Source: a virus. From it: DNA of 32,862 bases. The notes beneath the pieces were generated by a model. It was not told where the DNA came from. It saw only the letters and a program-made list of their open reading frames with translations, and did no database searches. The translations under genes and the position numbers were made by a program. This document shows positions 4,985 through 31,990 of this stretch, in pieces (the stretch's first letter is position 1; each line of letters opens with the position of its first letter). The stretch spans positions 1 through 32,862 of IMG/VR virus record IMGVR_UViG_3300035490_000124; one strand, written 5' to 3'.

Positions 4985-5044
4985 CTTAAAAAGATTCAAA
5001 CTCTTGAATTGATACAAATCTTAGTATGCTCACCACTTGCATAC

Positions 5045-5058
5045 GTATTTTAAAATAC
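5045..5058. promoter_or_regulatory. 14-bp perfect palindrome, candidate operator
   Basis: GTATTTTAAAATAC at 5045-5058 is its own reverse complement and lies 53 bases upstream of the ParB-methyltransferase ATG at 5112. A TATAAT sits at 5097-5102, close to that ATG, but no convincing -35 element is at the right distance. The palindrome could be a regulator binding site for this gene; this is inference from symmetry and position only. Confidence 0.35.
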
Positions 5059-5111
5059 CTCCCAATCGTTTCAATAGTTTTAATCCTTTTAACCTATATA
5101 ATTACAAAAAT

Positions 5112-7042: not shown

Positions 7043-9769
7043 ATGATCACTCCTCCCTTTCCCAACTCCCTCGCTATCGGCGGCCCTGTTCCAAACCTCT
7101 CCCCAACAGCCCTGGGCTTTTCTTTTCGTCTCGCCATTGTCGGTGAAGCCCCTGGTGAAGAAGAATGTGACCAACGCAAACCTTTTATTGGCGCCTCTGG
7201 TCGTGTTCTTGACAATATCCTTTCCCAACTCAATGTCCCCCGTGCCGCCTGTCTAATAGCCAGCGTCTGCCAATACCGACCACCGGGCAATAAGATAGAA
7301 TTATTTTCCAAAACCGGTCCTGAATTCGCCCACGGCCTTGCGGAATTAAAAAAGGACTTAGACGCCTTTCAACCCAACTGTATTCTTCTTCTCGGTCGTT
7401 CCGCGCTTTACTTCGCAAAAAACGGCGAGGATAAAATCGGAAACTGGCGGGGTTCTTTTTTCATCGGGTCTGGAGTCTTCGCAAACTACAAATGCATCGC
7501 CACTTACCACCCAGCCGCTTGTCTGCGTCAATATAAATGGATGCCTATCTTACGCATGGACATCAAGCGTGCTTTTAACGAATCGACCTCCCCAGAACTT
7601 CACCTCCCTATTCGAGACTTTCATATCGACTACGACGTCGATATGATCGTTTCTCGTCTTTATAATTTTATCGAAAACTCCGAAACCGTTTCTTGCGACA
7701 TCGAAGGCGGACTTGACTGTATGTCTTGCATCTCATTCGCTTCTTCGTCTTCATACTCCTTTATTGTACCCCTCGCAAAGCTTGACGGCTCTTCCTACTG
7801 GTCTTCTTTAGAAGAAGAACTTCGTATATGGAAAGCACTCTCCGCTATTCTCGCCTCCCCCAAGGTTAAAAAGATTCTTCAAAACTGTCTCTATGACGCT
7901 TTCGTTCTTGAATACGGATACTCTTGCTTCGTATCTAACATTGTCGATGACACGATGTTAAAATTTTGGGAACAATACTGTGAGCTTGAAAAAAGCCTGG
8001 CCTTTCAAACATCTCTTCTCACAAAAGAACCTTACTACAAATCTGAACGTAAGGCTTCTGACTACCACATTCACTATACATATTGTTGTAAGGACTCCGC
8101 CGTTACTTTCGAATGCAATGACCAACTTACAAAACTCCTAACTCCCACGTCTAAAAAACATTATGAATTCAACCACTCCCTTCTGCAAATCTTCCGCTAC
8201 ATTGAACTGCGTGGAATCAAATACGACACACAAAAAGCCACGCAACGCCTTCAAGAAGTCGATCACCATATTCATCTCCTACAAAGGGAGCTTGACCTGC
8301 TTGCAGGAGTTGGAGTCGAAAAACTTTTACTCGACCTTAAAGAACACCCTTCAAGATCTGAAACACGCTCTGCTTCAAGATTTGAAATACTCCTTTCCAA
8401 AATACAATCTGAAATTTGTTATAAAAAGAACCCCGGTCAGCCAAAGAAAGACTTTGAGGAAGCTTATCCAACAATCAAACTCCTTATCGAAGAAGTTGCA
8501 GAAACTCAACGTGAGTTTACCCCCGAGGAAATTGGATACCTTAATTCTACAATAGGCTGGTCGATGAATATCAAAGGAAAGGACTTTAAACACTTTCTTT
8601 ACGATGTTTTAAAACTTCCTATACAATATAATACAAATCCCGAAACAAAGGTTCGCTCAATCACCACCGATTATGATGCTCTTTTACAAATCCAAAAATC
8701 CAAGACTCCTCACCCCGCCGTTGCCTTGGCCATTGACATTGGAATCATGCGCACTCGGAGTCAAATGCTTCACATCTTTGCCGACCCTGATGGAAGAATC
8801 CGCGCGGGTTACAATCCAGTCGGTACGACAACTGGGAGAATTTCTTGCTACACATCGCCGACCGGTTCGGGATATAACTTGCAAACAATACCTGACGCTA
8901 ATTCCCTTCGGCCCCCTGGTCATCCTATACACAAAGGTATGCGTGACTTATTCATTGCCGACGAGGGATACTTTTTATTCCAATGTGATCTTAAAGGGTC
9001 GGATGGTTGGACTATTGGGGCTATTCTCAACAAATATGGAAGCCCAACAATGTTGGAAGACCTACGCTTCGGAATCAAGCCAGCGAGTCGAATTTGTTAC
9101 ATGCTACGCCACGGGAATCATTCCCTTATCGGAAAGCAAAGAGACGAGATTAAGTCTCTTCTCAAGGAGGTTAAGAAAGACGACTGGGATTATTTTGCTT
9201 GCAAAGTTGGCATTTGGGGCGTTTGTTATCTCATGGGTGTTGATTTACTTTCTGATCAAATAGGCAAACAGAGCGAAGGAAAGGTATGGTTAAGTAGGAG
9301 TGAAGTAACAAACTTCAGGCAAGCCGTGATGCTCGGTTATGATATTCAGAAATTTCACAACTGGGGGACGAGGGAAGTATGTCCTAAGCGTATCCTATCC
9401 GCGTCCAATGGATTCACTAGAAGATTCTTCGGTCGATCGACAGACATCCTCGGAGAAATACTTGCACATCTCCCTCAAGTATATACAACGTACGCAACAA
9501 ACATGGCAGCAAGGAGCCTTTGGTATGATAAAGAAAACAGAATTCAAGATGGAGATAAAACAAAACTCAAAATCCAACCCCTACATCAAGTCCATGATGC
9601 GCTTATCGGACAATTCCCCAAAGAAGACCTTTCCTGGGCAGTTGGTAAGATTAAATCCTACTTTAATAATCCCGTCGAAATCGCGGGTCAAATAATAACA
9701 ATACCTTTTGACGGGAATTATGGAACAAACTGGGCATTTGATGAAGAATCCAAGGTTGGAAATATTTGA
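7043..9769 (+). CDS. polA: UDG-like domain fused to family A DNA polymerase with 3'-5' exonuclease
   Basis: A 908-aa replicative polymerase. Residues 1 to about 185 match a family 4/5-type uracil-DNA glycosylase fold: VGEAPGEEE, PFIGASGRVLDNIL, then TYHPAACLR. Next is a DnaQ-like exonuclease with SCDIEGG (D219, E221), QNCLYDAF (D285) and YCCKD (D351). The polymerase domain has motif A with D649 (CDLKGSDGW), motif B with K721 to Y729 (KVGIWGVCY), and motif C QVHDALIG (D852). Phage SPO1 DNA polymerase also has a UDG-like N-terminal region, so the architecture has precedent. Oddities: the N-terminal C-x2-C expected for the Fe-S cluster of family 4 UDGs is absent, and motif C has Ala where Glu is usual. 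Whether the glycosylase domain is active, or is a uracil sensor, cannot be told. Confidence 0.95.
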   Translation: MITPPFPNSLAIGGPVPNLSPTALGFSFRLAIVGEAPGEEECDQRKPFIGASGRVLDNILSQLNVPRAACLIASVCQYRPPGNKIELFSKTGPEFAHGLAELKKDLDAFQPNCILLLGRSALYFAKNGEDKIGNWRGSFFIGSGVFANYKCIATYHPAACLRQYKWMPILRMDIKRAFNESTSPELHLPIRDFHIDYDVDMIVSRLYNFIENSETVSCDIEGGLDCMSCISFASSSSYSFIVPLAKLDGSSYWSSLEEELRIWKALSAILASPKVKKILQNCLYDAFVLEYGYSCFVSNIVDDTMLKFWEQYCELEKSLAFQTSLLTKEPYYKSERKASDYHIHYTYCCKDSAVTFECNDQLTKLLTPTSKKHYEFNHSLLQIFRYIELRGIKYDTQKATQRLQEVDHHIHLLQRELDLLAGVGVEKLLLDLKEHPSRSETRSASRFEILLSKIQSEICYKKNPGQPKKDFEEAYPTIKLLIEEVAETQREFTPEEIGYLNSTIGWSMNIKGKDFKHFLYDVLKLPIQYNTNPETKVRSITTDYDALLQIQKSKTPHPAVALAIDIGIMRTRSQMLHIFADPDGRIRAGYNPVGTTTGRISCYTSPTGSGYNLQTIPDANSLRPPGHPIHKGMRDLFIADEGYFLFQCDLKGSDGWTIGAILNKYGSPTMLEDLRFGIKPASRICYMLRHGNHSLIGKQRDEIKSLLKEVKKDDWDYFACKVGIWGVCYLMGVDLLSDQIGKQSEGKVWLSRSEVTNFRQAVMLGYDIQKFHNWGTREVCPKRILSASNGFTRRFFGRSTDILGEILAHLPQVYTTYATNMAARSLWYDKENRIQDGDKTKLKIQPLHQVHDALIGQFPKEDLSWAVGKIKSYFNNPVEIAGQIITIPFDGNYGTNWAFDEESKVGNI

Positions 9770-10030: not shown

Positions 10031-11281
10031 ATGCCCTCATTCCTTTCCGACTATATTCACTACACCTCCGGTAACGAATGTCCAAAGAACTGGCATTTTT
10101 GGTCAGGCTTTTCTTGCCTTGCTTGTGCGTTGCAAAAACGTGTATACCTCCGCAATGGCTACTTCACAATAACTCCACAACTCTATACCTGCCTCGTCGG
10201 TCCCCAGGGGGATAAAAAAACCACTGCAAAAAACATAGCCTACGATATGGTTGTAGAAGCTCTCCCCACTCTTCCCATTGGCGCTGCGATGTGGACTTGT
10301 CAAGACATTGTAAAGAACATGGCCGCTGACGATTACGAACGTGTATATACCGACGAACATGGTACTCAAGTCTCTCACCGCCCCCTTGCCTTATTTGTAA
10401 ACGAACTAAAGAACTTCATGGGCATCTCCCCAAGTATGATGATTAACTTCCTCACCGACATATGGGATAAAAAAATGTTCGATGCAGGAACTATTAAACG
10501 CGGATTAGAAGTAATAATGAACCCCTGTATAAACATCCTTGCATGTGAAACCCCCGAGTGGATTATTCAAAACCTAAAACTCAATATAATCTCCGGAGGA
10601 TTCGCACGTCGTGTAATGTTCATCTTGGCAGAAGACGAAGGCAAACGTATTCCCTTTCCCGAAGTCTTACAAGACATGGCCCTTGCTCGCAAACGTTGTA
10701 TAGAACACCTTCGTAAAATCTCCACAATAGTAGGGGGTTTTCAATACGAACCCGACGCTCGCGACTTCTATTCTAAATGGTATCGCGAACGCGTCATCCC
10801 CTCTGACTCTCCCATTCTCGGCTACTTAAAATCGAAACCAGAATTCGTTTTAAAACTCGCGATGCTCATAGAAATGAGTGAATACTCTCCACGTTTAATC
10901 ATCCGCAAGGACTCAATAGAAGAAGCAATGGCACATTTGGAACTCGCTGAAATAACCATGCCTAAACTCTTCCTCGCCAGCGGTCGTAACGAACTCGCCC
11001 AACATCAACAAGCCCTTTTGGAACACATTAAAAAATTAAACGGAAAAATCTCCACCAAGGAGGTGAAGAAGTTTCTTGAAAATAATATGTCTCGAATGGA
11101 AGTTCTTTCTACAATAGAATGGCTGAAAGAAACTGATCGTTTAATCGAACGCGATCATATTTTATGGCTGCCTGAAAAGTACGGGGAGCTTTTAGAAAAA
11201 CAGAAAGCGGCAAAGTCAAATTCAACTTTAACTTTAACTCCTCCTCCTACCCCTACCCCTTCTTCAATTCCCCAAGCGTAG
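10031..11281 (+). CDS. DUF3987-like P-loop ATPase, putative replicative helicase
   Basis: A 416-aa protein resembling phage DUF3987-type RecA-fold ATPases, often found in primase/helicase contexts. It starts with FLSDYIHYTSGNECPKNWHFWSGFSCLACAL. A P-loop-like LVGPQGDKKTTAKNIA follows, in which the usual GK is KK. A Walker B-like LALFVNELKNFMG has Asn at the first acidic position. GGFARRVMFILAEDEGKRIPFP is typical of this family. The C-terminal third is helical and possibly winged-helix-like, and ends in a Thr/Pro tail (TLTLTPPPTPTPSS) encoded by simple repeats. It probably acts as replicative or loading helicase, as no other DnaB-like gene is visible. Its 3' end overlaps the converging ATP-grasp gene by 29 bases. 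Confidence 0.85.
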   Translation: MPSFLSDYIHYTSGNECPKNWHFWSGFSCLACALQKRVYLRNGYFTITPQLYTCLVGPQGDKKTTAKNIAYDMVVEALPTLPIGAAMWTCQDIVKNMAADDYERVYTDEHGTQVSHRPLALFVNELKNFMGISPSMMINFLTDIWDKKMFDAGTIKRGLEVIMNPCINILACETPEWIIQNLKLNIISGGFARRVMFILAEDEGKRIPFPEVLQDMALARKRCIEHLRKISTIVGGFQYEPDARDFYSKWYRERVIPSDSPILGYLKSKPEFVLKLAMLIEMSEYSPRLIIRKDSIEEAMAHLELAEITMPKLFLASGRNELAQHQQALLEHIKKLNGKISTKEVKKFLENNMSRMEVLSTIEWLKETDRLIERDHILWLPEKYGELLEKQKAAKSNSTLTLTPPPTPTPSSIPQA

Positions 11282-12623
11282 GCAAGGGTTTATCCGTAAA
11301 CTTAACCCCCATTTTTTCCCCCTCCCTAATTGTATCCAAAGCCTTATCAATACTCCCCAGTGAAACTTCAATCCCAAAACCTTTTATCATTGCAGCTCGT
11401 TTCTTACACAAGTTTATTGCTTCAAGTAATGAATTCCCCACACCCACGACAACACCCAAATCAGGCAAACCTATGGTTTGTGGTGCCACGTAGTCCTTCC
11501 CGTTTCTACGGACGTGAAATCTTAATTTTACATACTCATCAATTTCTTTTGGATAACTAATACTCTGTGTATTTTCAACCGCAAACTCACTATGAATAAC
11601 AGCCATACAACCGAACTCGAACTTTTTCCTTGGTGTGGTACAAACACCACCGGCCCCGTCCCACAGAACTTGAGGCCAATTATCAAACAGCTCCTGCAAC
11701 AACTCGTTACTCGGCGTGCCCAATCTGCAACAAGGATCAATGAAGTACGCTTTCTTATCCTTGGTGTAACGTATTTCACTACAGAAAAAGCCGCAGTAAT
11801 TATCCGCACGGAATGCCGCGACCAGGCCAGCGTTCACTTTCTTAACTGGCTCTGCGAGTTCGTCATAAGTTTTAACACAACCGATCATTCCACAGTCCTT
11901 AACTTCATACGCCATCATTCCCAACTTGGGGAATTGACCTCTCACCGTGAAGCCGTCGTAACCAACCTCAACAGCGTCAGGGATTTCATCCTCAACAATA
12001 AATTCATAATCGTTTTTGACAATTCCCAAATGATGTTCCAAATCATCGAGCCTGGGTTCACTGAGAGCATAAGTCTCGTGTCGGAAGGTTTCAAAATCCC
12101 CACGGGTGAATGAAGTTTTTACATATTTATTTTCCACCTTCTTAAGGTGGTTTCTTAGTTTTTCAAAACCAAAAATATGTTCCATCGGCTGGACGTCCAT
12201 TCCTTGCTTTTTTAACCATTCTTTAAACTCCCATCTATGAAGTTCCATTTCCTCACCGAAGCCGGCACCCCATACACGTTTGCCTTGGCTTCTCAACCGT
12301 TCTTGCCAGTCACTCTGATACAGATCAAGAAAGACCCAAAGGTCAACTTCATCTTCCCTGCTTTGCGGGTCCAGGATACGTTCTATCTCATCGAACCCAC
12401 TCCCTATAACGAGCTGGCGCGACTGTACAAAAGCGGATTGATATGGTGTGTAGTAATAAACCTTTTTGAACCCCGAGGCGATCTTCCGTGCAAAGCTTAT
12501 GAACAGCCCATTGTCTACTACACACACCGTCTTCGTCCGGAGTTCCCCCTCGGTGATTCCCCCCATGTTTGATTTTTCTTCTTCTTCTTTTTCTTTTTCT
12601 TTTTCTTCTTCATCTTTCTTCAT
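11253..12623 (-). CDS. ATP-grasp ligase (PurD-like fold)
   Basis: A 456-aa ATP-grasp-like protein. After a charged tail, the N-terminal Rossmann-like part runs TVCVVDNGLFISFARKIA to VDLWVFLDLYQSDWQERLRSQGKRVWG. The ATP-grasp core includes NKYVKTS, YEFIVEDEIPDAVEVGYDGF and a YFIDPCCRLGTPSNELLQE metal/phosphate segment that corresponds to the D/E-x-x-x-R region of PurD-like enzymes. ATP-grasp enzymes join a carboxylate to an amine or thiol via acyl-phosphate; the substrate here is unknown. The ATG at 12623 overlaps the zincin stop (ATGA). Residues 2-18 are a Lys/Glu run from a GA-rich repeat, so a start at 12566 (residue 20) is possible. As last gene of the late operon it may modify a virion or host protein. 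Confidence 0.88.
   Translation of the reverse strand: MKKDEEEKEKEKEEEEKSNMGGITEGELRTKTVCVVDNGLFISFARKIASGFKKVYYYTPYQSAFVQSRQLVIGSGFDEIERILDPQSREDEVDLWVFLDLYQSDWQERLRSQGKRVWGAGFGEEMELHRWEFKEWLKKQGMDVQPMEHIFGFEKLRNHLKKVENKYVKTSFTRGDFETFRHETYALSEPRLDDLEHHLGIVKNDYEFIVEDEIPDAVEVGYDGFTVRGQFPKLGMMAYEVKDCGMIGCVKTYDELAEPVKKVNAGLVAAFRADNYCGFFCSEIRYTKDKKAYFIDPCCRLGTPSNELLQELFDNWPQVLWDGAGGVCTTPRKKFEFGCMAVIHSEFAVENTQSISYPKEIDEYVKLRFHVRRNGKDYVAPQTIGLPDLGVVVGVGNSLLEAINLCKKRAAMIKGFGIEVSLGSIDKALDTIREGEKMGVKFTDKPLPTLGELKKG
12134..12163 (+). terminator. Candidate rightward intrinsic terminator inside the opposite-strand gene
   Basis: CCACCTT (12134-12140) and AAGGTGG (12144-12150) form a 7-bp GC-rich stem with a 3-base loop, followed by TTTCTTAGTTTTT on the + strand. 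This has the form of an intrinsic terminator for the rightward unit, about 850 bases past its last stop codon, lying antisense within the ATP-grasp gene. No alternative terminator is visible at the convergence point. Confidence 0.4.
12572..12614 (-). repeat. GA-rich microsatellite at the ATP-grasp start
   Basis: On the minus strand this reads as GAAGAAGAA and GAAAAA-type units just after the ATG at 12623. It encodes the Lys/Glu-rich N-terminus if that start is used. If translation begins at 12566, it is instead an A-rich leader like those of other genes in the window. Confidence 0.75.
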
Positions 12624-19695: not shown

Positions 19696-21150
19696 TTAAT
19701 CTTTCTCGTTTTCCATTCTATAATGAAAGGTTAAAGCCCCAAGCACAGCCGCAGTACTTCCAGTAGTCTGTGCCATAAATCTCACCTGATATCCTTCCAT
19801 GTTTGTACAGACCTGCGACTGCAACTGATAAGAAGGTATATTCGTGGTGAAAACTAACTGCATCACAGCATTCAACTGGCCTGTTTGTGCTGGCTGCCCC
19901 GGACCGACCATTCCTACATATAGATTCCATCCACCACTAACATCACAATCAAGACTCTCCGCTGCTTTTAAAGTCCCCGGATGCTTGAAATCAAGAAACG
20001 CCGTAGCGGCAGTAGCCTGCGTCGCGTCATACGTATTATTATTCGCTCCTCCGTATATGTAAATCCCATTTGCAGTATTGATATAAACTTGTCCATTGTA
20101 TATTTCAAACCCCGTTGGAACAATAGTAAGTACCTGAGTTAAATCCGTAAGCGTACTACTTCCATCAGGAGTTCCTGGGTATGTAATATACAATTGAAAA
20201 GTAGGAGCTACGATATTTTGCGAAGTATACCAATTTACTCCTCCCTCTCCTACTGAAGTCGCATTACCTTTCACCCAGGCATATGTATGGCCAGGTACTG
20301 TATTAAAGCTAACAACCGAACCTCCAGTAGTCGCAGGGGTTAAAGGAGAAAAGATAGTAGGAGTATAAGTACTCCACGAAAGAATCTGTATCGTCGGGAA
20401 GTAACTAAAAATATAAATCAATCCATTAAGATACAACCAGTATCTTCCTGTTGTAGGATCAACAATGGAACAAGCCCCCGCTGCACTGTTTATTCCGTTC
20501 GCGATTAAACTCGCTTGGATCAATGAATCAATAGCACTTCCCAAATCGTTGACAAAAGAAAATCCAGTAATCTCTCTCGCGCGTAAGCTCCTCACTCCTG
20601 TGTAATGAAGATATAAAACATCCAAATCTCCCATAGGTTGAACGCTATTCGCAGCAATAGTTCCTGAATTCTGAATAGTTTGAACTAAATCCCACTGCAA
20701 AGGATCGGCATTTGTTTGCCATATTTGAATACAGTTCTGACTAAAGAAGGCAAGATTACCTTGGAATTCTGCAACAGCTATTAAATTCGTCGACTGTCCA
20801 TTTACATCGCTCAATTGAACATAGCTATTGCCAATTCCTGTAAGACTATTCCACGATGCCGCATCGTCGATGCTTGAAAAATACACTGTATCTTTTGCAA
20901 GTACATATTCTTTCTTATTAAAGGTAAAAGCAAAAGTCGGTGTAATTCCTGTAACTGTGCCATAGCCCAAAAGCGTCTGTGAGCCTGAGGTTAAATCTGT
21001 CACAATAATACTATATCCATCCCCTGTTTGTATAGTAGCGGCTCCAGTTAAATTGAACTGATAAAACTCTCCAATTCCATCAAGAGGATCAATTCCGCCG
21101 GTGATTGCGGTGCAAGTAGTAACAAGCTTTTGAGAAAGCGTAATGCTCAT
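19696..21150 (-). CDS. Tail nozzle protein, beta-propeller part (T7 gp12/P22 gp10-like)
   Basis: A 484-aa protein, almost wholly beta. The segment TVYFSSIDDAASWNSLTGIG to FQGNLAFFSQNCIQIWQTN is characteristic of podovirus tail-tubular-B or P22 gp10-like nozzle proteins. Later, GRYWLYLNGLIYIFSYFP is a typical propeller blade. The protein lacks the usual N-terminal NFKPGLDT-type start, which is found instead on the 920-aa gene immediately upstream. The two genes therefore seem to make one nozzle from two chains. It lies 21 bases downstream of that gene's stop. No Shine-Dalgarno is visible (TTAAAAGTAATTTTAT before ATG). Confidence 0.88.
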   Translation of the reverse strand: MSITLSQKLVTTCTAITGGIDPLDGIGEFYQFNLTGAATIQTGDGYSIIVTDLTSGSQTLLGYGTVTGITPTFAFTFNKKEYVLAKDTVYFSSIDDAASWNSLTGIGNSYVQLSDVNGQSTNLIAVAEFQGNLAFFSQNCIQIWQTNADPLQWDLVQTIQNSGTIAANSVQPMGDLDVLYLHYTGVRSLRAREITGFSFVNDLGSAIDSLIQASLIANGINSAAGACSIVDPTTGRYWLYLNGLIYIFSYFPTIQILSWSTYTPTIFSPLTPATTGGSVVSFNTVPGHTYAWVKGNATSVGEGGVNWYTSQNIVAPTFQLYITYPGTPDGSSTLTDLTQVLTIVPTGFEIYNGQVYINTANGIYIYGGANNNTYDATQATAATAFLDFKHPGTLKAAESLDCDVSGGWNLYVGMVGPGQPAQTGQLNAVMQLVFTTNIPSYQLQSQVCTNMEGYQVRFMAQTTGSTAAVLGALTFHYRMENEKD

Positions 21151-21171: not shown

Positions 21172-23934
21172 TTAAGGTTGATATACAGTGACACCATTGC
21201 TTGTTGCAGAGTTTCCTTGTGAATCAGTAACGACACAGACCCATGCAGTTAAATCACTACCCGCTGTATCATTGCGATAGAATTGAACTGATTGAGCTGT
21301 GGGACTCGATACATAAAACCCTGTCGCGCCGTTTGCAAATTGCCATGAATAAGTATAAGGAGGGTAACCGCCAATGACAGAACACGTGACAATCACTGGT
21401 GAAAAGGTAGCAGTGATGTTATTGTTGCGTGTAAAATTAACAGATGTAGGACTAACCGACGCAATCATTAAATTAGTTCCTACACTTCCTACACCTAAGT
21501 AACTATTGGAGTCAACAGAATATGTTAACGTTTGTGAAGGATCATTATTCGTCGTAACGATATTCGAAAGATAAAGTATATTCCCATCAGCAACAGCGAG
21601 CCAAGTTGTATTAACTCCTCCCGTTGTATTTGAATTTATATCATTTGCAATAGCTGTGACCAAAGCAGGAATGGTGGTTAAAAACGGATGGGCCCCTGTT
21701 ATTAAAGAAATTCCATTAAACGTTAAAGTTGACAACGAAGCAGTAGATGTCTGTGCACCTATCGAAAAGATTAATCCTAAAAATCCACAGCAAATACCCA
21801 CTGCTGTTACACTAATATTCGCATTATTAGTATAGCTGTTAAAACTCGTTGCATAGATGAAAATCGTTTGATTCCTATTCTGCGCATAAAACCCACTACT
21901 CCCTTGATAACTACTAATGGCTGAAGCCACGCTGTTTGCAAACTGTTGAATAGTTTGCTGGGAGGTCCAAATAACAGGATAGGGAATTAAAGAAACTGTA
22001 TCCGCCCCGCCTGTTAAAGTAGCCGAAACAGTCAAATAAGCACTTGACGTACTCATGCTTATTGCATTCCCTGCTGAACCTGGGAAACGGGCAATTATTT
22101 TATAAACACCCCCTTGAGTCGAAGGCAGGGCAGAAGCTTGAGTATTCAAGCTAGACACTTGATAATTGACTCCGTAAATTCCTGTCTGATTAATAGCGGC
22201 TATGAGGTTTTGTAAAGTGTCTTGTATAAGACTTCCAATTAAAACACTTCCTTCAGCAGGAGTCCCAGGGAGTGTTGTAACAAAAGTATACAATGTTGAT
22301 CCAATAATAATTGTATCGTTATTGGATAAATTAGTTCCAGAAAAAGCAATCTGTCCTGACGCTGCTACTGGGCCTACAGTAATCGCCGTGAGTTGATTGG
22401 CTCCTACTATAGTTAAATGGGCCGTGTTATTCCCAGAGACGGGAGCGCCTCCTGTGGGGGTAAAAGTAAATCCTGTAGTATCTCCAAACATGTCAGGATC
22501 ATCAGGAACTATTGAAATTATAAACAAAGTAGGCAGCATGCTTAAAGTAATACCATAGGTTGAGCCTGAAATAAGTACAGGTGCTGCTGCGGTTACACTC
22601 AAATTGGCAGTGATTTGTCCTGTGTTCCAAGTAGTAATTCCAGAGTAGTTCACCCCTGGAGTTCCTTGAGCCGTTATTGCCAAGTATAAATTATTCAATG
22701 TAGTTTGTACATCAACTCCAATCAACACGTTGATGTCCCAATCACCTCCGCTTACATTAGAAACACCCGCCGTTGAAAGGGATGCAACAAAAGTATAATG
22801 AGCCAATGAAGTTCCATGACCCGTGAGTCCTGTATAGATAAAAACATTCTCACTAGTTCCTGAAGGCTGTGTAGCCCCATTACTACTCAACACTCCTGTA
22901 GCTACTGTAGACGAACTTGGCACACCTGCGACGATTTGAAACTGTCCTTGTGCTTGTGCTCCTTGTGTAGGAGTCGTCGTGGGAGCTTCATTTACAAATG
23001 AAAGCCCTGGAATAAGGTTTTCCACTGCGCCACTTGTATTTAACGTGCGTGCTGTTAAAGTAAAAGAAGGATACTTAGCCAAGGACAATAGCGAAGCAAT
23101 AACATTCGCATTTGCAGCGGCGCAATAATAAGTATTATTATACCCAGTACCATGATTAACCGCATTATACAAATACGAAATTGTCTGATAAACATTTGTC
23201 CCAATAAGTACTTGACCCTCTACAGCTGAAAGCACAGAAACAAAAGTATAAGTCTTTCCTCCAATGAAAATTGTTTGTCCATTACTAGGATTCGTTTCTT
23301 GGGCACTTGCTAATACCGCAGTGGGATAGGTAGTATTGCTTCCAGTAGTTATATTAAACCCCGAAAGACTTTCTGTTATCACTTCTACATTATAACTTCT
23401 TCCCGGAATACCTAATAAATCCATCTCTGTTCCATTAGAAATAGCTGTGTAGTCAGATGTATTATTAACAAGACTCGCTATTTCTTGCACTACACTTGTA
23501 TAGGTAGTTAAATAAGGAAGCACCAGCCCTGCAACAAAGTCCGCAACTAGCTGTCCGTTGTAATAACAAAAAGTCCCAGCAGCTCCAAAGGTTGCAATTA
23601 CAAAAGGAAGTCCTCCAAAGCATCTAGCCATTACCACAGCAGTCATCCCACTAATTCCATCCGGGGCTATTAACTGCTGATAAGTAACTCCCCCAGGAAC
23701 TGTCACACCCGCTACTGAAAGGCTGCCGAATGTCATTAATCCGACAGAAGTAGCTACAAGGCCGAAACAATTCGTGGTGTTCCCCACTAATGTTATTGCT
23801 TTTCTTTTCTCGATCTGGCCTCCTTGGTTGATGTGACAGTCAGTCAAAGTATCTAACGTGCCCGGTTGAGAGGTAAGCTCAGAACGACGGGTGTCAAGTC
23901 CTGGTTTGAAGTTAGATATTTGAAAATAAGGCAT
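21172..23934 (-). CDS. Tail nozzle protein, N-terminal part with inserted repeats, 920 aa
   Basis: Starts MPYFQISNFKPGLDTRRSEL and GGQIEKRKAITLVG, which match the N-terminus of podovirus tail nozzle (tail tubular B-like) proteins. It then contains three copies of a domain built as (T)I.IGGKTYTFV...EGQVLIG...TI..L..A(V/I)N, around residues 225-330, 385-470 and 555-650. This domain is seen in other phage tail proteins. The C-terminal ~85 residues form an Ig/PKD-like domain (GGYPPYTYSWQFANG; WVCVVTDSQGNSATS). The beta-propeller body is on the next gene. The repeats probably decorate the tail and may bind carbohydrate, which is inference. Confidence 0.88.
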   Translation of the reverse strand: MPYFQISNFKPGLDTRRSELTSQPGTLDTLTDCHINQGGQIEKRKAITLVGNTTNCFGLVATSVGLMTFGSLSVAGVTVPGGVTYQQLIAPDGISGMTAVVMARCFGGLPFVIATFGAAGTFCYYNGQLVADFVAGLVLPYLTTYTSVVQEIASLVNNTSDYTAISNGTEMDLLGIPGRSYNVEVITESLSGFNITTGSNTTYPTAVLASAQETNPSNGQTIFIGGKTYTFVSVLSAVEGQVLIGTNVYQTISYLYNAVNHGTGYNNTYYCAAANANVIASLLSLAKYPSFTLTARTLNTSGAVENLIPGLSFVNEAPTTTPTQGAQAQGQFQIVAGVPSSSTVATGVLSSNGATQPSGTSENVFIYTGLTGHGTSLAHYTFVASLSTAGVSNVSGGDWDINVLIGVDVQTTLNNLYLAITAQGTPGVNYSGITTWNTGQITANLSVTAAAPVLISGSTYGITLSMLPTLFIISIVPDDPDMFGDTTGFTFTPTGGAPVSGNNTAHLTIVGANQLTAITVGPVAASGQIAFSGTNLSNNDTIIIGSTLYTFVTTLPGTPAEGSVLIGSLIQDTLQNLIAAINQTGIYGVNYQVSSLNTQASALPSTQGGVYKIIARFPGSAGNAISMSTSSAYLTVSATLTGGADTVSLIPYPVIWTSQQTIQQFANSVASAISSYQGSSGFYAQNRNQTIFIYATSFNSYTNNANISVTAVGICCGFLGLIFSIGAQTSTASLSTLTFNGISLITGAHPFLTTIPALVTAIANDINSNTTGGVNTTWLAVADGNILYLSNIVTTNNDPSQTLTYSVDSNSYLGVGSVGTNLMIASVSPTSVNFTRNNNITATFSPVIVTCSVIGGYPPYTYSWQFANGATGFYVSSPTAQSVQFYRNDTAGSDLTAWVCVVTDSQGNSATSNGVTVYQP

Positions 23935-24378: not shown

Positions 24379-24900
24379 TCAATAAGTAAATCCAAGGCCA
24401 GTCTCAAAGCAAGGAGTGCGAGAGTTCTTGCCTTCAGTAAACAAAGGAATCGAAACTCCAATGAGTGCAAAGGTGTTCTTGGTGAGTTTCTTCTCAAGCT
24501 TCAACTCAGGCTCGATCACATAAGTATTACGATACCATGAATATCCAGATTCAACTTCAATACTCGCTTGAGTATCGAAATGCTGAATAAACGCATAGCC
24601 AGTGATAAGTTGGGCAGAACCAATAGTAGAGCCAACACCCTCAAACTGAATACTACCACCCAACAAAAACCGAGAGTCGATGTGGTATTCAGCATTGATA
24701 ACATCAGTCGCTCCTTGACTAGTGACTTGCTTCCACGAAGAAGCGGCTTCAATTGTCACAGAAGACCAGTCGTAGTTCGTATTAAACGAAGTAAGATATT
24801 CCTCAGCACTATTGAAGAACGTCGGGATGTTCGTTACTTGCGCCTTGCTTGTCAAAACAAGGCTTGCGATCAAACTAACTGCTAATACTAACTTTTTCAT
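24379..24900 (-). CDS. Phage-encoded outer-membrane beta-barrel protein
   Basis: A 173-aa protein with a signal peptide (MKKLVLAVSLIASLVLTSKA, cleavage likely before Q21). Alternating strands follow (VINAEYHIDSRFLLGGSIQF; AQLITGYAFIQHF; ASIEVESGYSWY), and the C-terminus FETGLGFTY ends in an aromatic residue as barrel proteins do. It is therefore probably inserted in the host outer membrane, where it might act in superinfection exclusion or release. The start at 24900 was chosen over one at 24951, because it begins exactly at the signal peptide and has an A-rich context (AAAGACAAAACAA). It overlaps the previous gene by 26 bases. Confidence 0.85.
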   Translation of the reverse strand: MKKLVLAVSLIASLVLTSKAQVTNIPTFFNSAEEYLTSFNTNYDWSSVTIEAASSWKQVTSQGATDVINAEYHIDSRFLLGGSIQFEGVGSTIGSAQLITGYAFIQHFDTQASIEVESGYSWYRNTYVIEPELKLEKKLTKNTFALIGVSIPLFTEGKNSRTPCFETGLGFTY

Positions 24901-25310: not shown

Positions 25311-28300
25311 TTAAGGATAAGTCGCCATTGGTTTTACCACATAACTAGACGACGTGTTGCTATACACAATAGCCATCTGCCCATTCGTCCACACACCAAA
25401 CCAAACGTTGGTTTGCGTAGCGGAATAGGCCGGTACTAGAGACCAGTTGAAACCCGCTGCCGTATTCTGCGTTCCAACGAATCCGTTCGTACTGGTGATG
25501 TAGCCGGAAGCAATTAGTTTACCCGTGACATTCACCTGTACTACGCCCGGTCCCCCCAGCAGCACAGAATTATCTACGTTGTTTACGGCGTTGTAGCCGA
25601 TGGCTGTCCGGTTGAGCGACCAGTCGCTTGATACGTTCGCCCCGTACCCGATGGCAGTATTATAGCCCTCGTTTGAATAATTACCGACCAACGCATTATA
25701 GCCGACGGCAGTGTCGCCGCTCTGACTGTTTTGATTCATTGAGTTGGCTCCAACCGCCACGCTGTTGAACGCTGCGACCGAGCCGGACCCCGTATTGGAG
25801 TTCGTGCCCATGGCCCCGTGGCCGATGGCTACATTGTAGTTCCCACCCACATTGTAATTCATCGCCGATGCTCCAATCGCTACATTATACCCGCCAGTGT
25901 TGTAGTAGAGTGAATTGATGCCAATCCCCAAGTCATATGTACCGGAGCTACTATTGAGTGAATTGTACCCAAGGCCCACACTAAAAACACTAGCACTGTT
26001 TTGCATCGAATTAAACCCGACAGCCACATTGCCGTTCACTCCGGCCGACACGCCGTGCATCGCCCCGTATCCAAGTGCCGTATTGGCCAGGGAAGTGTTG
26101 GTGCTGTTCCCTGCATTCCCCCCAAAAAAATAGTTGTTTTGTAAGGGTTGAGCCTGGAACAGTTCGACCCCATCAAATATGATGTCATTTGCGTTAATCA
26201 GTTTTGGACTGCCAGCCAAATCTTCAACCAGCGAAGCCCGCGTCACAAGATTAGATGATAGCGGCACAAACAGAGAACTGCCTGCCACACCCGCGTAAGC
26301 CCCGATACCCATCACCAAATACCCCTCGTCATTGTAATGCACCGATCCATCCGCCGCGATCAGGGAGACCGGCGGAATGTCATTCGACGCCGCCCATATA
26401 TCCAACGGAAAAGCCGGATTCCCATGCGAATGGATGAAATGATAAACATCAATATAGTGGTTCGTAAAAGTGGTGGCCAGTTGCATGTTGACATTGGTAA
26501 TACCTGTATAATTGGAAAATCCATTACCCCCGGGATACTCGTTGGTGGCGTTAAGAACTGACATCACCCAGTAGTTGGATGGGGCATGCACGTTGATGCA
26601 ACTCCAAATGTTTGAAATTGTGACGCTTGGATTCGTATAGTTTATATCGTTTGGCAAAGTGGTGTCATTCCGCCCCATCATAAAGATTGTCGGCAAGTTG
26701 GAAATGCTTGGTGTATTTGTCCACATTGCCAGATAATTGGAAGTAATCAGCGTTGATGAACCGCCAACAAAAGCGAAGTTGGTCGCCAGGCAACCGGCCA
26801 TGGCGCTAAACGCCTTCGGATAGTTCATATAGGTGCCTTCATACCCGGCCGTCAAACTGTCACCGACAAAAACCCATGTGTTCGTGGGTGAAATCGGCGC
26901 GTTCAAATTTGTTGCCACATTCAAGTTGGTCAGGCCCGCGCCGTTGCCATTCACCACCCCTTGCAGGATTGTATTGGTGATGTTCGCATTACCCAGCACC
27001 ACCTGCGGTCCTAAAACTGTCACGCCTTCACCTATAGCAATTCCAACATCTGTGGAAGCCCCAGCACCAATGGCCACACCATTTGGGCTGGTTACTAATG
27101 CATGGGAACCAATGGCCACACCATTGGTTCCGTGCAGAAAAACGGCGGCGGAATAACCGATGACTGTTGATGCAGGACCATTCGCAGCAGATTCTTCACC
27201 TGCTGCGAAGGAAAAATCTCCAGGTGCGCTGGCGGCGATTCCGAATGCTTCGCTGCTTGCACCCCACACACCGGGATCAATCGAATAGAATGCAGACCCC
27301 GAATTTCCCCCGTTCGTTAAATTTGATCCGGCAGTCACATTCAAGTTGGTCAGGCCCGCGCCGTTGCCATAATAAGTTTGCCCGGTCGGCAATGACACGC
27401 CAGTAAGGGGAATGACGCTAAACCCGGTATTTGTAGAAATGATCGATTCGCCAATATTGAGCGAATTTGCCCCTGCGTGGTAAATACTGGCCACTTCTCC
27501 AGCGGAAAGGCAGTTGGTGAACCAGGCCACCTCGTCCATATATCCATAGCCACTGTATCCCGAGCCACTCAGAGTCAGAGTCGTTTCGCCAGAACCATCC
27601 AACTTGCCGCCAATGGGGACAGGAGGCAGCGCAATGCCATTGGTGTAAATCGTCATCTGCTCCAGGTTGGCTACAACCGCGACATGCACCCATTGGTTCA
27701 TTGGTAGAACAGCCGCGAAGTATCTGTAACCCTGGGAAAATCCGAGTTGAAAGCCATGTCCTGATGTGGAATAGAATAGATCCCAAGCACTTTCGCGAAC
27801 AGGGTTAATATCAGTCCCAGCGTTAGTAGTGATGAAGAACCAACCCGAGTACGACCAGTTTGTGAACACGTTAAGATTATAGGCCGGACTTGAGGCGGTC
27901 AGCACGGCGATAGACTCACCAATAAAGCTAACCGCCTGCATGGATTCTCCATTTGCGACATAGGATTCAAGTCCTCCATAGACAGAGGCATTGTTTCCCC
28001 CCACGACATCATTCAAGTTCCAATTAAATGGCCACCAACTTACCAGACAATTGGTGACACTCGCTAAGACAAAGTAACCGTTGGTGTTGCTGTTGTAAAG
28101 GAAATTGAACCCACCAAATGCCGTCTGTGGTACCGGCGTAAGATTATTATTTACCAGGATGTTACTGTTTGTTGCAGCGAACTTTACCGAACCACCGAAC
28201 GTCCCACTAAGCACATTCAAATTTGTTGCTGTTCCGTTCAAGCTGGAAATATACGAAGAGCTTGGCGGAATAGTCAGATTGGTCAGGCCGGAGCCGTTGC

Positions 28301-29780
28301 CCTGAAAGTTTGTGCTCGTGACTGTGCCGTCCGAGCTAATAATAACCGTGCCGTTAGGCAAGGAAAAGGTGGATGCAACAAGATTGGTGCTGCCAGCCAC
28401 ATTCAAGTTGGTCAACCCAGAGCCGTCACCTTGTTGCGCAATTTGTTGAAAAACCGGGATCATGTTGGTGAATATCTGGGCCTCGCCCATTTGATTAGGA
28501 TGAATCCCATCACCATAATTATTATTGGCATTCCAGTAGCCATTGTCGTTCGGGTCAACTGCATGTGCCGCTTCAATAAACCCGGACAGCGGCCATGGAA
28601 CAGTGCGAATCCAGTTGTTGTACTGTATGCGGATTGCCTCCTGGTTCGTGTCCCTTAAGGAGGCTGAGTTTGTGTAAGGGAATGTACTGCTGTCCGGTGT
28701 CAGTGTCCAGCCATATACCTTTTTCCCAAGCTTGTAATCGTTGAGCCATCCAGTGACAGCCAAATTGGTTAGGGTCGAAAAACTGTCGAAATTTTGGACT
28801 AAACAATCATTTACTCCCAGACAGTTCAACACCACGCTGGAATTAAGCGCGAGTTGATTGTTGATCGGATTAGTGTTTTCGACATAGAAGAGATTTCCGG
28901 AAGTGGCTAGGTTCATCAGCGGGATACCGTATGCACTGGCCAAGACTGAGGCCGCATTAACTGTGTAGTTGAAACCTGCCAGTTGGGGACTGGAACCAGA
29001 ACTGATGGAATCACCACGCAAGGCAATGCTGATTGGTGGAGTGATCGCGTTGTCCGCCCGTTGGGCAATGATGCTAAAAGGCGCGACGCAGTAGGTTTCA
29101 CCATCTGGAATGGTTCCAGCCAAGTATAGATTCGGGGCATCGGTGGCAATAATGGCACCTCCTCCAAGTCCAATGGTTCCAAGACCATTGAAGTAGTTGT
29201 CGACGGACACCACTGACGCCTCGACCAAGCTGCCATTCGTCGTGGTCGCATACTCACGAATGTAGAAATTGGTATTGGCCGGTATGACTAGCCCTGCCAA
29301 AGTGTCCGAGAAATAGTTTGTCTTTCCCGGCGTCACCAGCATATTACTGTTCCCACCCCAAGTAAACGGGGTCATGGTTCCAACCGGGTACTCGACCGAG
29401 GCGTAAACCGTGTAACTGTTGGAGAAACTAATGTCGCCTTGTCCTTGTTGGTAATATCCAGGAACGGAAACAGCAATGTTTTTGAGCGGAAAATATCCAG
29501 ACTGATAAGGCTTTCGAGTCATGCAGGCCATGTTCAAACCAGACGGGGTGGTTTGGTTTGCAGTTGCTGAGATCGTATAAATCACCCCACCAAAAAGTGT
29601 TGTATAAGGAATCTTCGACTGCACGGCAGAAACGGCGATACCATAAACAGCATTGCTACTGAGGCTTTGCCCGGGATAGTTGCTACTGAGGCTTTGCTCG
29701 GGATAGGGTCCGTTAGGATAGGCGACCACTTCATTCACTATTGCCAAGAAAAGGCAACTCAAAGTTAAAAATTTCTTCAT
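25311..29780 (-). CDS. Signal-peptide-bearing tail-fibre/adhesin-like protein with two SGNH hydrolase domains
   Basis: A 1489-aa multidomain protein. It has an N-terminal signal peptide (MKKFLTLSCLFLAIVNEVVA), then two 9-residue repeats (YPEQSLSSN, YPGQSLSSN). The first SGNH/GDSL hydrolase has S258 (RGDSIS) and D424-H427 (DGIHPN). G-[DN]-G-[SA]-GLTNL repeats follow (four seen), with a LamG-like domain (VSWWPFNWNLNDVVGG; WSYSGWFF) and YadA-type head repeats (GTNGVAIGSHA). The second SGNH has S975 (VGDSLT), a GRND block and H1148 (DGSVH). A long run of NTALGY/NVAIG-like head repeats closes it. This is the profile of a host-binding fibre that deacetylates or cleaves surface glycans. The signal peptide is odd for a virion part. 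GC content is well above neighbours, suggesting transfer. Confidence 0.9.
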   Translation of the reverse strand: MKKFLTLSCLFLAIVNEVVAYPNGPYPEQSLSSNYPGQSLSSNAVYGIAVSAVQSKIPYTTLFGGVIYTISATANQTTPSGLNMACMTRKPYQSGYFPLKNIAVSVPGYYQQGQGDISFSNSYTVYASVEYPVGTMTPFTWGGNSNMLVTPGKTNYFSDTLAGLVIPANTNFYIREYATTTNGSLVEASVVSVDNYFNGLGTIGLGGGAIIATDAPNLYLAGTIPDGETYCVAPFSIIAQRADNAITPPISIALRGDSISSGSSPQLAGFNYTVNAASVLASAYGIPLMNLATSGNLFYVENTNPINNQLALNSSVVLNCLGVNDCLVQNFDSFSTLTNLAVTGWLNDYKLGKKVYGWTLTPDSSTFPYTNSASLRDTNQEAIRIQYNNWIRTVPWPLSGFIEAAHAVDPNDNGYWNANNNYGDGIHPNQMGEAQIFTNMIPVFQQIAQQGDGSGLTNLNVAGSTNLVASTFSLPNGTVIISSDGTVTSTNFQGNGSGLTNLTIPPSSSYISSLNGTATNLNVLSGTFGGSVKFAATNSNILVNNNLTPVPQTAFGGFNFLYNSNTNGYFVLASVTNCLVSWWPFNWNLNDVVGGNNASVYGGLESYVANGESMQAVSFIGESIAVLTASSPAYNLNVFTNWSYSGWFFITTNAGTDINPVRESAWDLFYSTSGHGFQLGFSQGYRYFAAVLPMNQWVHVAVVANLEQMTIYTNGIALPPVPIGGKLDGSGETTLTLSGSGYSGYGYMDEVAWFTNCLSAGEVASIYHAGANSLNIGESIISTNTGFSVIPLTGVSLPTGQTYYGNGAGLTNLNVTAGSNLTNGGNSGSAFYSIDPGVWGASSEAFGIAASAPGDFSFAAGEESAANGPASTVIGYSAAVFLHGTNGVAIGSHALVTSPNGVAIGAGASTDVGIAIGEGVTVLGPQVVLGNANITNTILQGVVNGNGAGLTNLNVATNLNAPISPTNTWVFVGDSLTAGYEGTYMNYPKAFSAMAGCLATNFAFVGGSSTLITSNYLAMWTNTPSISNLPTIFMMGRNDTTLPNDINYTNPSVTISNIWSCINVHAPSNYWVMSVLNATNEYPGGNGFSNYTGITNVNMQLATTFTNHYIDVYHFIHSHGNPAFPLDIWAASNDIPPVSLIAADGSVHYNDEGYLVMGIGAYAGVAGSSLFVPLSSNLVTRASLVEDLAGSPKLINANDIIFDGVELFQAQPLQNNYFFGGNAGNSTNTSLANTALGYGAMHGVSAGVNGNVAVGFNSMQNSASVFSVGLGYNSLNSSSGTYDLGIGINSLYYNTGGYNVAIGASAMNYNVGGNYNVAIGHGAMGTNSNTGSGSVAAFNSVAVGANSMNQNSQSGDTAVGYNALVGNYSNEGYNTAIGYGANVSSDWSLNRTAIGYNAVNNVDNSVLLGGPGVVQVNVTGKLIASGYITSTNGFVGTQNTAAGFNWSLVPAYSATQTNVWFGVWTNGQMAIVYSNTSSSYVVKPMATYP
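26916..26950. repeat. 35-bp identical repeat inside the fibre gene, copy 1
   Basis: The 35 bases encoding GNGAGLTNLNV are identical to those at 27336-27370. Diverged copies occur around 28270-28310 and 28397-28440. All encode G-x-G-x-GLTNL motifs between domains, so they could act as recombination joints for domain swapping. Confidence 0.85.
27336..27370. repeat. 35-bp identical repeat inside the fibre gene, copy 2
   Basis: Second identical copy, 420 bases from copy 1. Recombination between them would remove exactly 140 codons, including the YadA-like segment, in frame. Confidence 0.85.
29653..29706. repeat. Tandem 27-bp repeat after the fibre signal peptide
   Basis: Two tandem 27-bp copies (29653-29679 and 29680-29706) differ at one base and encode YPxQSLSSN twice. 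This is a recent in-frame duplication just behind the signal peptide. Confidence 0.9.
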
Positions 29781-29809: not shown

Positions 29810-30592
29810 TTAAATAAAGAATGCCAGAAGTGTCATAGGAGTCCCAGCAGCGGCTGTATAAGTCTGCGCAGTAGAACTCACATAAAGATAACAGCCTTGA
29901 TGAATTGTTCCTGAAATATCCTGACTCATGACCGGCTCGCCGTCGCCAAAAACAAGTGGGGGTAAACTGCTTCCATTAGTAAGAGCCCACTGTTGTATGG
30001 GTGCTGCACCTGTTGCAGGCGTCGGAGCCGCGAAAAGCATCAAATATACTGTTCCTCCAGAACTATTAGTTCCCGCAATTTTCAACAAACGATGCTTTGC
30101 ACCCGAAGCATTGTCCACCCATACGGTAAGATTTTGCACAGCAGCCCCTGTTAAAGTCCCATTGCTGTTAACATTAGCTTGTTGCAATTCATACTCTTCA
30201 ACATCCACGGACAAATCAAACACAGCTCCATCAGTCGGCGCTGTATAAGTATACTCTGTAGTGCTCAGAACAATAACCAAATTGCCTTGATTAAGTCCTG
30301 TGGAAGAAGCAACTCCCATTGACATCATATTCAATCCCTCAGGTTGATACGCAAAAGTAAATCCATCGAGATTAAGCACTTGCAGGCTTCTCAAGGGAAC
30401 CGATGCAGCGGCAGGTACAGTAGCTTGAGCAAATAACTGAAGAAAATACACCGCATTCGCAGTACCTGATGAAATGAATCCTTCAATGTTAAATATCTTA
30501 ACCTGCTGATTCCCAGTAGCAACAATCAAACTATTCGCCTGACCCGCTGCTTGGGTTATTCCATTAAAAGTTGAAACTGTTCTTGTCGGCAT
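29810..30592 (-). CDS. Probable virion protein with two similar beta-rich halves, 260 aa
   Basis: Not a recognised family. It is beta-rich and small-residue-rich, starting MPTRTVSTFNGITQAAGQAN. It seems to contain two related halves: NAVYFLQLFAQATVPAAASVPLRS in the first corresponds to GTVYLMLFAAPTPATGAAPIQQW in the second, and each half ends in a TYT(A)-containing strand (EYTYTAPTDGAVFDLSV; QTYTAAAGTPMTLLAFF). It sits between the tail adaptor and the fibre gene, so a minor head or tail decoration protein is likely. Leader A-rich with no Shine-Dalgarno. Confidence 0.82.
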   Translation of the reverse strand: MPTRTVSTFNGITQAAGQANSLIVATGNQQVKIFNIEGFISSGTANAVYFLQLFAQATVPAAASVPLRSLQVLNLDGFTFAYQPEGLNMMSMGVASSTGLNQGNLVIVLSTTEYTYTAPTDGAVFDLSVDVEEYELQQANVNSNGTLTGAAVQNLTVWVDNASGAKHRLLKIAGTNSSGGTVYLMLFAAPTPATGAAPIQQWALTNGSSLPPLVFGDGEPVMSQDISGTIHQGCYLYVSSTAQTYTAAAGTPMTLLAFFI

Positions 30593-30640: not shown

Positions 30641-31363
30641 TTATTTTGAATTATTCCCCGCAACCGCGATAGGAACAACTCTCTTTCTGTTCATTCTTTC
30701 ATCCTCACCCCTACCGAAAACAAGTCCAATAGGATCACAAGGATAATTTCCACGAATGCTTGCAAGACGATCGTCGAACATTTTTTTAATAGCATCCCAA
30801 TTGTCTTGTTTCTTTTTCTTTAACTGCTTCCACGAAAGACTCAAAACAATCAATTGATCGTCTAAATCCGCAGTGTCTGTAGAACTAACCAAAGGATCAA
30901 GCACTCTCTGTCCTGTGAATCTTACAACCTGTGCGGTTGTATTAATAGGCCAAAGCTCTACTTGATTCTCCCCGCTCCAACGCCAATTTTGAATAGGATC
31001 TTGAACATTCCCCGGCTGGTCTGAATTGAGATAATTATACTGCTCCGACCCAATCCCATAAGCTAGTGGATTCCAATAGTTTGTCCAGAAGACCTCGACC
31101 TTATAAGGACGCTCAAGGTTCATAGCTATCGCATTTCCTTCATTGTCAACAGTGGGGAAAGGTAGATAACGAGACCCAGCAGGGGCCAAAAGGTCGAAAC
31201 GATCTTCAAGGAACGGCCAGTCGTACTGTCCAGCAAGCCACTTCTGTTCATCAGAAAGAAGCTGAAACAGTGACGACTGATTCTGTGGAGCCGCTGTTAT
31301 GGCACTATCAAGCTGAGCTTGTAGCATCGTTAGAAGAACGGATAGCTGTGTATTACGTGCCAT
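30641..31363 (-). CDS. Tail adaptor protein (T7 gp11 / P22 gp4-like)
   Basis: A 240-aa protein resembling podovirus head-tail adaptors (tail tubular A-like). It begins with a helical region (QLSVLLTMLQAQLDSAI), then LLSDEQKWLAGQYDWPFLEDRFDL and RYLPFPTVD, typical of the family. A beta insertion (RPYKVEVFWTNYWNPLAYG; WRWSGENQVELWP) precedes a C-terminal helix bundle (DLDDQLIVLSLSWKQLKKKK; DDRLASIRGNYP). It should form a ring between portal and nozzle. No A-rich leader of the tandem type precedes it. Confidence 0.82.
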   Translation of the reverse strand: MARNTQLSVLLTMLQAQLDSAITAAPQNQSSLFQLLSDEQKWLAGQYDWPFLEDRFDLLAPAGSRYLPFPTVDNEGNAIAMNLERPYKVEVFWTNYWNPLAYGIGSEQYNYLNSDQPGNVQDPIQNWRWSGENQVELWPINTTAQVVRFTGQRVLDPLVSSTDTADLDDQLIVLSLSWKQLKKKKQDNWDAIKKMFDDRLASIRGNYPCDPIGLVFGRGEDERMNRKRVVPIAVAGNNSK

Positions 31364-31411: not shown

Positions 31412-31990
31412 TTACAAAGGAGTTGAAAGATCGTCCTTAGGAGGTTCGACCAAAGCAACAGGTTCAATGGGTTTAACTTGTGAAGCAACAATACTCGTGA
31501 GCAAGGCAATCTGCTGAGTGAGCTGACTGATTTGCTCCTGAGTTTTATCAATCTTCACAATGTGCTGTTCGCTCTTATCGTATTCAGCCTGTTCTTGAGG
31601 GGTGAGTCCGCGAGGAATCTTACTCAAGGGAAGAATCTCCTGGGGCTTACCCATTTTAGGCTGTTTAAGATCGGTTTCGAAAACAATCTTACCGGATTCG
31701 TCTTTCGGAAACTCATCAGGGATGATGTCCACAGACTCACCGGGGAAGCATTCTTTCGTCACTTTCTCTCCATAAACACGACAGAGGCGTTTGTACTCTT
31801 CACCTTTTGATTTTTTGGATGTCTCTTCCAAGAGGTCAAAGTGTTCGAAGGGGTTTGTGTAACCACCGATTTCATCACTCAATTTCACAGCAAAGAGCTT
31901 GCGGAGAACGATTGATTCAGCCGGGGTTACACGTTCCCGAGGAACGAATGACCATTGATTAACACGAAGATGAACGTTTGCGAGTTGCAT
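31412..31990 (-). CDS. Hypothetical protein with C-terminal coiled coil, 192 aa
   Basis: I do not recognise this protein. It is a soluble, charged protein. The first part (MQLANVHLRVNQWSFVPRERVTPAESIVLRKLFA) looks like a small globular domain. The middle is Glu/Lys/Pro-rich. Residues ~135-170 (AEYDKSEQHIVKIDKTQEQISQLTQQIALLTSIVAS) would form a coiled coil. It lies just upstream of the tail adaptor gene, where podoviruses often carry small head or scaffold-like proteins, but this is only positional. Confidence 0.8.
   Translation of the reverse strand: MQLANVHLRVNQWSFVPRERVTPAESIVLRKLFAVKLSDEIGGYTNPFEHFDLLEETSKKSKGEEYKRLCRVYGEKVTKECFPGESVDIIPDEFPKDESGKIVFETDLKQPKMGKPQEILPLSKIPRGLTPQEQAEYDKSEQHIVKIDKTQEQISQLTQQIALLTSIVASQVKPIEPVALVEPPKDDLSTPL

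Follow-up and report, generated by a model that had tools for sequence, protein, structure and literature searches.

How could a receptor-binding protein that begins with a Sec signal peptide become part of a tailed virion? Tailed phages are taken to build their virions wholly in the cytoplasm, and the question is raised by gene 25311-29780 of a viral contig. The window, that is, the whole stretch of DNA that was analyzed, comprises a complete IMG/VR record of 32,862 bases and appears to be a podovirus genome fragment. The earlier note on this DNA rightly saw a phage fibre with such a signal as an anomaly, and named export among its possible explanations.

The fibre gene and its signal peptide

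The features of the virion gene run are collected in Table 1. The genes for terminase, portal, scaffold and capsid are presumably beyond the right end of the window; in the related contig G002 all four are present and are followed by the post-capsid gene. Elsewhere in the window, CDS 7043-9769 specifies a uracil-DNA glycosylase domain fused to a family A DNA polymerase with exonuclease, CDS 5037-6791 a ParB-type N-terminal domain (slightly under the Pfam cut-off) fused to a DNA methylase, and CDS 11253-12623 a protein of 456 aa that has no Pfam match and is strongly conserved in contig L096 (E 8.6e-187). A near-identical contig (L003; nozzle 98% identical) ends within the 3' part of the fibre gene, at its positions 1-187.

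Table 1. Coordinates of the fibre gene, its predicted segments and domains, and the neighboring genes of the window.
Feature	Position	Strand	Remarks
Post-capsid gene (POST), 268 aa	32019..32825	-	Signal peptide MKSFSFTSLIGVIAATAALLLSSEVQLQAQ; corresponds in position to the gene that immediately follows that of the major capsid protein
Connector-like gene	31412-31990	-	Between post-capsid and tail tube genes
Tail tube protein (TTA)	30641..31363	-	Homologous to RHph_N65 and Mae-Yong1326-1 proteins
Clade-specific two-domain beta-sandwich protein, proposed fibre adaptor (ADP)	29810..30592	-	Without signal peptide; profile match in 24/26 clade contigs; model pLDDT 84.5
Fibre/tailspike gene	25311-29780	-	ATG start, 1489 aa; Pfam and PHROG matches
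Predicted Sec signal peptide MKKFLTLSCLFLAIVNEVVA	29721..29780	-	Residues 1-20; from sequence, rule score 3.73
Predicted mature N-terminus YPNGPYP	29700..29720	-	Residues 21-27; proposed docking peptide, with the proline-rich/GPYP motif shared across the clade
SGNH hydrolase domain 1	28482..29015	-	Residues 256-433; Pfam PF13472 and motifs
LamG/ConA-like lectin domain	27489..27881	-	Residues 634-764; Pfam PF13385
SGNH domain 2, approximate bounds	26331..26864	-	Second Pfam stretch and motifs at residues 973-1148
YadA-head-like repeats matching PHROG 4636 tail spike	25689..26138	-	Residues 1215-1364
Two small genes	between fibre and 24379-24900 gene	-	Minus-strand virion gene run
Barrel-like third signal-bearing protein MKKLVLAVSLIASLVLTSKAQ	24379..24900	-	No Pfam match
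DUF1353 gene	between 24379-24900 gene and nozzle	-	Minus-strand virion gene run
Tail nozzle, N-terminal gene	21172..23934	-	Without signal peptide; homology to nozzle N-termini
Tail nozzle, C-terminal gene	19696..21150	-	Weak rule match only (1.84), taken as a false positive

To judge from its sequence, the product of 25311-29780 is very probably a receptor-binding tail fibre, a multi-enzyme tailspike. Pfam detects two stretches of Lipase_GDSL_2 (E 1.7e-15, the best being the first SGNH domain) and one of Laminin_G_3 (E 5.9e-9), while PHROG 4636 ('tail spike protein') matches over the repeats only (E 1.4e-12). Both SGNH domains retain catalytic-type motifs, namely GDS, an Asn block and a His block (GDS 256, GVND 322 and DGIHP 424 in the first; GDS 973, GRND 1036 and DGSVH 1144 in the second), and the Asp-His spacing is one residue longer in the second. 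The motif GLTNL occurs four times, at residues 451, 494, 805 and 945. The two SGNH domains, the LamG domain and the GLTNL repeats described in the earlier note are thus confirmed by Pfam and motifs, and the YadA-like head repeats it reported are present at residues 1234-1400, but the Pfam YadA model does not reach E 0.1. Among phages, searches with the fibre gave nothing beyond a distant SGNH match to a single Gordonia phage, and among solved structures they gave no match at E 0.01. Neither the window nor G002, the whole record of which was covered in pieces, showed a second fibre candidate.

The clear Sec signal that had been noted at the start of this protein is borne out. Its n-region carries lysine, a hydrophobic core follows, and V-V-A ending at residue 20 forms the cleavage site. 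With the next ATG only at residue 84, the signal is not due to a start placed too far upstream. We consider this predicted signal peptide to be real and conserved in its lineage, and there is a high likelihood that the host uses it.

Signal peptides across a podovirus clade

Relatives were sought by tBLASTn with the tail tube, the nozzle and (through G002) the capsid protein, which led to Rhizobium phage RHph_N65 and Microcystis phage Mae-Yong1326-1. Single-protein scans with the window fibre or tail tube returned no relatives, but alignment-based scans of IMG/VR gave relatives of nozzle, tail tube and capsid, to which 12 genome loci were added. From one of these IMG/VR scans the best 80 of 577 confirmed matches were used, and the sample therefore favors contigs near the clade. 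At least 26 distinct contigs of one podovirus clade were recovered. Duplicate loci, the near-copies L131 (of L130) and L161 and L163 (of L164), and the partial contigs L003, L005, L136 and L145 were dropped from the fibre and post-capsid counts. In a capsid and tail-tube tree of 96 rows, the clade forms one branch of 28 rows (SH-aLRT 100) and the remaining 68 rows, including 11 cellular loci, are placed outside it. The fibre signal has a single origin on this tree; the computed three changes include a mislabelling, as rows L131 and L161 were marked 'out' despite having the same genes.

The profile of the proposed adaptor matches in 24 of the 26 distinct contigs, the exceptions being L123, which ends earlier, and L134, which gave no match. 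Where both ends are present, 4.7–9.5 kb separate tail tube and nozzle in the clade, whereas outside it these genes are adjacent or have at most about 1.6 kb between them. RHph_N65 and Mae-Yong1326-1 carry homologous capsid, tail tube and nozzle genes in identical order, but without the adaptor or a signal-bearing fibre cassette between tail tube and nozzle. Their nozzle is encoded by one gene and that of the clade is split over two, the N-terminal one having long inserted repeats. When genome contigs were searched with the capsid profile, 12 loci were found. The tree places 11 of them (Alphaproteobacteria, Myxococcota, Vibrio and a Phycisphaerae MAG) outside the clade, and the twelfth, L121, lies in a Bacteroidia MAG and matches weakly and only in part; no clade prophage was thus seen among them.

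Signal peptides were called with a home-made rule in place of SignalP, at thresholds of 2.5, 2.8 and 3.0. In 24 clade contigs, the window among them, the fibre gene directly follows the tail tube and adaptor genes, and its product carries a signal in 23 of the 24, 21 by the rule at ≥ 2.5 and two by eye (L102, MKYLIALLMTATACVA|GPL; L164, MKKLILLLGLQCCLVWA|GPN). Twenty fibres score ≥ 2.8, and L095 scores 2.69. The product of the post-capsid gene reaches ≥ 2.8 in 25/25 clade contigs. Under the identical rule, the controls scored in 1/23 (capsid), 3/25 (tail tube) and 0/24 (adaptor) cases, with the start codon having been picked to favor a signal for the fibre and post-capsid genes and not for the controls. 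After shuffling residues 2-35 of the 24 clade fibres, 2.8 was reached in 154 of 2400 trials, against 20/24 for the real sequences, and in the other set of shuffled N-termini the rule was reached in 251 of 2500. ORFs scoring 3.0 in clade loci are concentrated between capsid and nozzle (58/237, versus 2/214 elsewhere), and signal-scoring ORFs number 49/418 in clade loci, near-copies included, against 2/736 in 69 related non-clade loci. Hydrophobic N-termini can mislead the rule, as the three tail-tube N-termini that score too make plain. In the window, the tail tube (2.98) and the early gene 4323-4898 (1.92) match the rule, as does the C-terminal nozzle gene; all three were taken as false positives, as was the post-capsid gene of RHph_N65 (MAKIRNNFATATTVLAAAVA), which reached the rule once.

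Several contigs have a second or third signal-bearing gene behind the fibre (L107 12474-13657, L104 15055-17369, L109 12830-13992), which by eye lack a strongly proline-rich start. The signal-bearing genes also adjoin small membrane and lipoprotein genes that resemble lysis genes.

The predicted signals are confined to parts expected on the virion exterior, that is, fibres and perhaps a capsid decoration, and inner parts are without them. The post-capsid protein is a candidate for the latter by its gene position. Its model is of low confidence (pLDDT 61), and the hit to the jelly-roll cement protein of a Bordetella phage (3j4u_H, Z 7.7) is tied with many unrelated folds; searches with the post-capsid proteins found no match among phages. 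When the adaptor model was compared with solved structures none stood out, the best Z of 7.6 being shared by tied rows.

A shared predicted mature N-terminus and signals in other lineages

The mature fibres begin, right behind the signal, with a proline-rich stretch of GPYP or PPP type. Cleavage sites were set by hand (the rule alone agrees in 16 of the 21 scored fibres), and 21 of the 23 sites have Ala at -1. Proline accounts for 66 of the 230 residues that make up the first ten mature positions of 23 fibres (28.7%, versus 4.0% in the rest), each of the 23 N-termini has at least one, and none of 2000 random draws reached that proline level. GPY is found in 9/23, and GPYP is absent elsewhere in 12,952 aa. 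The mature N-termini of L135, L137 and L141 go on with PP(P)A-x-Q-x-EV-x-x-G...K-x-V-x-P, which we take to be a motif of ordinary phage fibres. Behind this start the bodies differ from contig to contig: Pfam finds a K1-lyase_C tailspike domain in L135, melibiase in L109, GH28 with LamG in L100, LamG in L096 and SGNH with LamG in the window; a search with another clade fibre found no match among phages. A common proline-rich N-terminus joined to differing bodies is the pattern of an attachment segment of a receptor-binding protein, and we infer that it serves for attachment here. Cysteine counts of the mature fibres gave no even-number pattern pointing to disulphides. One clade fibre alone, L165 13497-14417, has no signal. 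It begins MPALGGKAYPGSNGPYLKG and retains NGPY near its N-terminus; it has lost the signal and kept the motif, so export is not strictly needed for the motif's role.

Signal-bearing fibres also occur in other lineages. Among 55 viral loci matched by a GLTNL pattern, 6 of the 41 ORFs with a readable N-terminus score ≥ 2.8, and the clade capsid, sought in the contigs of these six (some of which are fragments), gave no match. One of these lineages is represented by G012, the tailspike of which reads MKRLMLSALVAFGLLSAISTPSYA|IVSSAINKN... and has an AAGGAG ribosome-binding site upstream. PHROG tail-fibre families align with its residues 26-141 from position 3 of the profile onward, and this domain is 42% identical to the N-terminus of the epsilon15 tailspike. 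Three cultured phages serve for comparison, epsilon15, Escherichia phage ZX5 and Pelagibacter phage Lederberg: their annotated genes begin two codons before the match, which puts the start of the domain at residue 3 with no signal peptide, as against residue 26 and a preceding signal peptide in G012. The G012 signal thus precedes a complete virion-binding N-terminus, which cleavage would restore. The epsilon15 tailspike and its relatives (Uetakevirus; Lederberg) resemble the window fibre in being modular, with a short virion-binding N-terminus and an exchangeable enzymatic body, but the N-terminus of the window fibre is proline-rich, unlike theirs. G012 has another fibre-like gene (L200 12212-13372), the product of which contains a GLTNL repeat and starts with the signal peptide MVRSWKLNLILIMIAPTVCFG. 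G014 and G015 have large-terminase genes (phrog_15), G015 also has a tape-measure gene, and both carry signal-bearing fibre-like genes behind the tail genes.

Export, attachment and the alternatives

We propose that the host Sec system would export the fibre and that the host signal peptidase would cut off residues 1-20, after which the freed proline-rich N-terminus (YPNGPYP) would dock on the virion, probably on the adaptor. Capsid, tail tube, adaptor and nozzle are proposed to assemble in the cytoplasm, because all are without a signal, and the last additions would be the fibres and the post-capsid protein, once holin action and lysis bring virions to the periplasm. Sec export of the fibres is well supported as a prediction from their sequences; cleavage, attachment after export, presence on virions, the docking partner and the timing are what we infer from it. 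We give an even chance to the exported form ending up on virions, and the account as a whole, from Sec export through cleavage to attachment at lysis, seems to us equally likely to be right or wrong.

Several points weigh against this account. A Sec-exported fibre and the assembling virions are on opposite sides of the membrane. The fibre of L165 is without a signal, the mature cysteines show no even-number pattern, and the signal calls come from a home-made rule with start codons picked in favor of signals. GLTNL repeats may point to a host in the Verrucomicrobiota, and for P8625, the sole isolated verrucomicrobial phage examined, the authors report no signal peptides (PMC4642752); our rule matched once in this genome, at an internal start in a 129-aa ORF. 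This counts against the export reading, and is neither for nor clearly against Verrucomicrobiota as host. As to late addition, P22 heads that are already complete may take up their tailspikes extracellularly. Late attachment of the long fibres is normal in the assembly of T4 (PMC3185693).

The exported protein may instead stay off the virion, as a secreted depolymerase, a decoy, a superinfection-blocker at the surface of the infected cell or an aid to progeny release. The bodies are enzymes and lectins (SGNH, LamG, GH28, melibiase) and the neighboring small membrane and lipoprotein genes look like lysis genes, as such roles would have it. However, the window and G002 offer no further candidate for the fibre, a short N-terminus common to differing bodies has the look of a virion attachment segment, and in G012 a known virion-binding domain directly follows the signal, and we regard a role away from the virion as rather unlikely. 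A less probable reading, which we hold to be doubtful, is that the signal-like segment is unused or only partly used, so that the fibre assembles in the cytoplasm and retains a hydrophobic segment, perhaps as a virion anchor. The intact, signal-less fibre gene of L165 and the tail-tube N-termini that score by the rule fit this, but the segment has n, h and c regions and mostly Ala at -1, the post-capsid protein bears a signal in every contig counted, and it is the segment that varies by contig and the residues behind it that are common, the reverse of an anchor pattern. The shared proline-rich segment, which begins at the predicted cleavage site, lowers the probability of the unused signal that the earlier note suggested.

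Capture of a host adhesin together with its signal peptide was also suggested there, on account of composition and of domains. GLTNL and YadA-like repeats do occur in bacterial surface proteins, and the foreign composition is real for the window gene, which has a GC of 49.7% against 43.7% for the contig (0.43 to 0.56 in 300-base blocks), or 0.497, with a GC3 of 0.546, against 0.441 ± 0.026 and 0.403 ± 0.062 in the other genes (n=19; z 2.1 and 2.3). It is, however, no mark of host origin, as the GC of the fibre minus that of the other genes averages -0.001 over the 24 clade contigs and is positive in 10 of them; a departure in both directions is what swapped receptor-binding modules would be expected to give. 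The window fibre had no match in 72,556 plasmids, and the arrangement is identical across the clade while the bodies differ. With the signal at the same place in 23/24 contigs, on unrelated bodies and with a single origin, a captured adhesin is unsupported as its explanation, and we think it very improbable.

Among known systems, filamentous phage M13 is assembled at the membrane, and is not tailed and has no capsid filled in the cytoplasm. Its minor coat protein G3p is a virion protein with a Sec signal (PMC8310372). Lambda encodes a signal-bearing protein, Lom, among its tail fibre genes (PMC12309495); it is a host-membrane protein and not a fibre, and is akin to the product of 24379-24900, not to that of 25311-29780. 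The position of 24379-24900, among fibre and small membrane genes, resembles that of lom. A search of the open-access literature found no report of Sec signals on tailed-phage fibres, which is not proof of absence. The lineage-wide Sec signals on fibres and post-capsid protein are real, and undescribed as far as the open papers searched show.

On the export account, some tailed phages would complete their virions outside the cytoplasm, with Sec-exported fibres and a capsid-associated protein that are matured by signal peptidase and fitted at lysis through the freed proline-rich N-terminus, a habit that would have arisen in one podovirus clade at the least, with separate origins in further lineages. 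We put this general form forward tentatively, as plausible but somewhat short of an even chance. If true, it would give tailed phages a second assembly compartment, open their receptor-binding proteins to periplasmic chemistry (disulphides, glycosylation), and offer a reason why the fibres would not have to stick within the cell. It would also caution against taking a signal peptide in a viral contig, on its own, as the mark of a host gene or of a secreted toxin.
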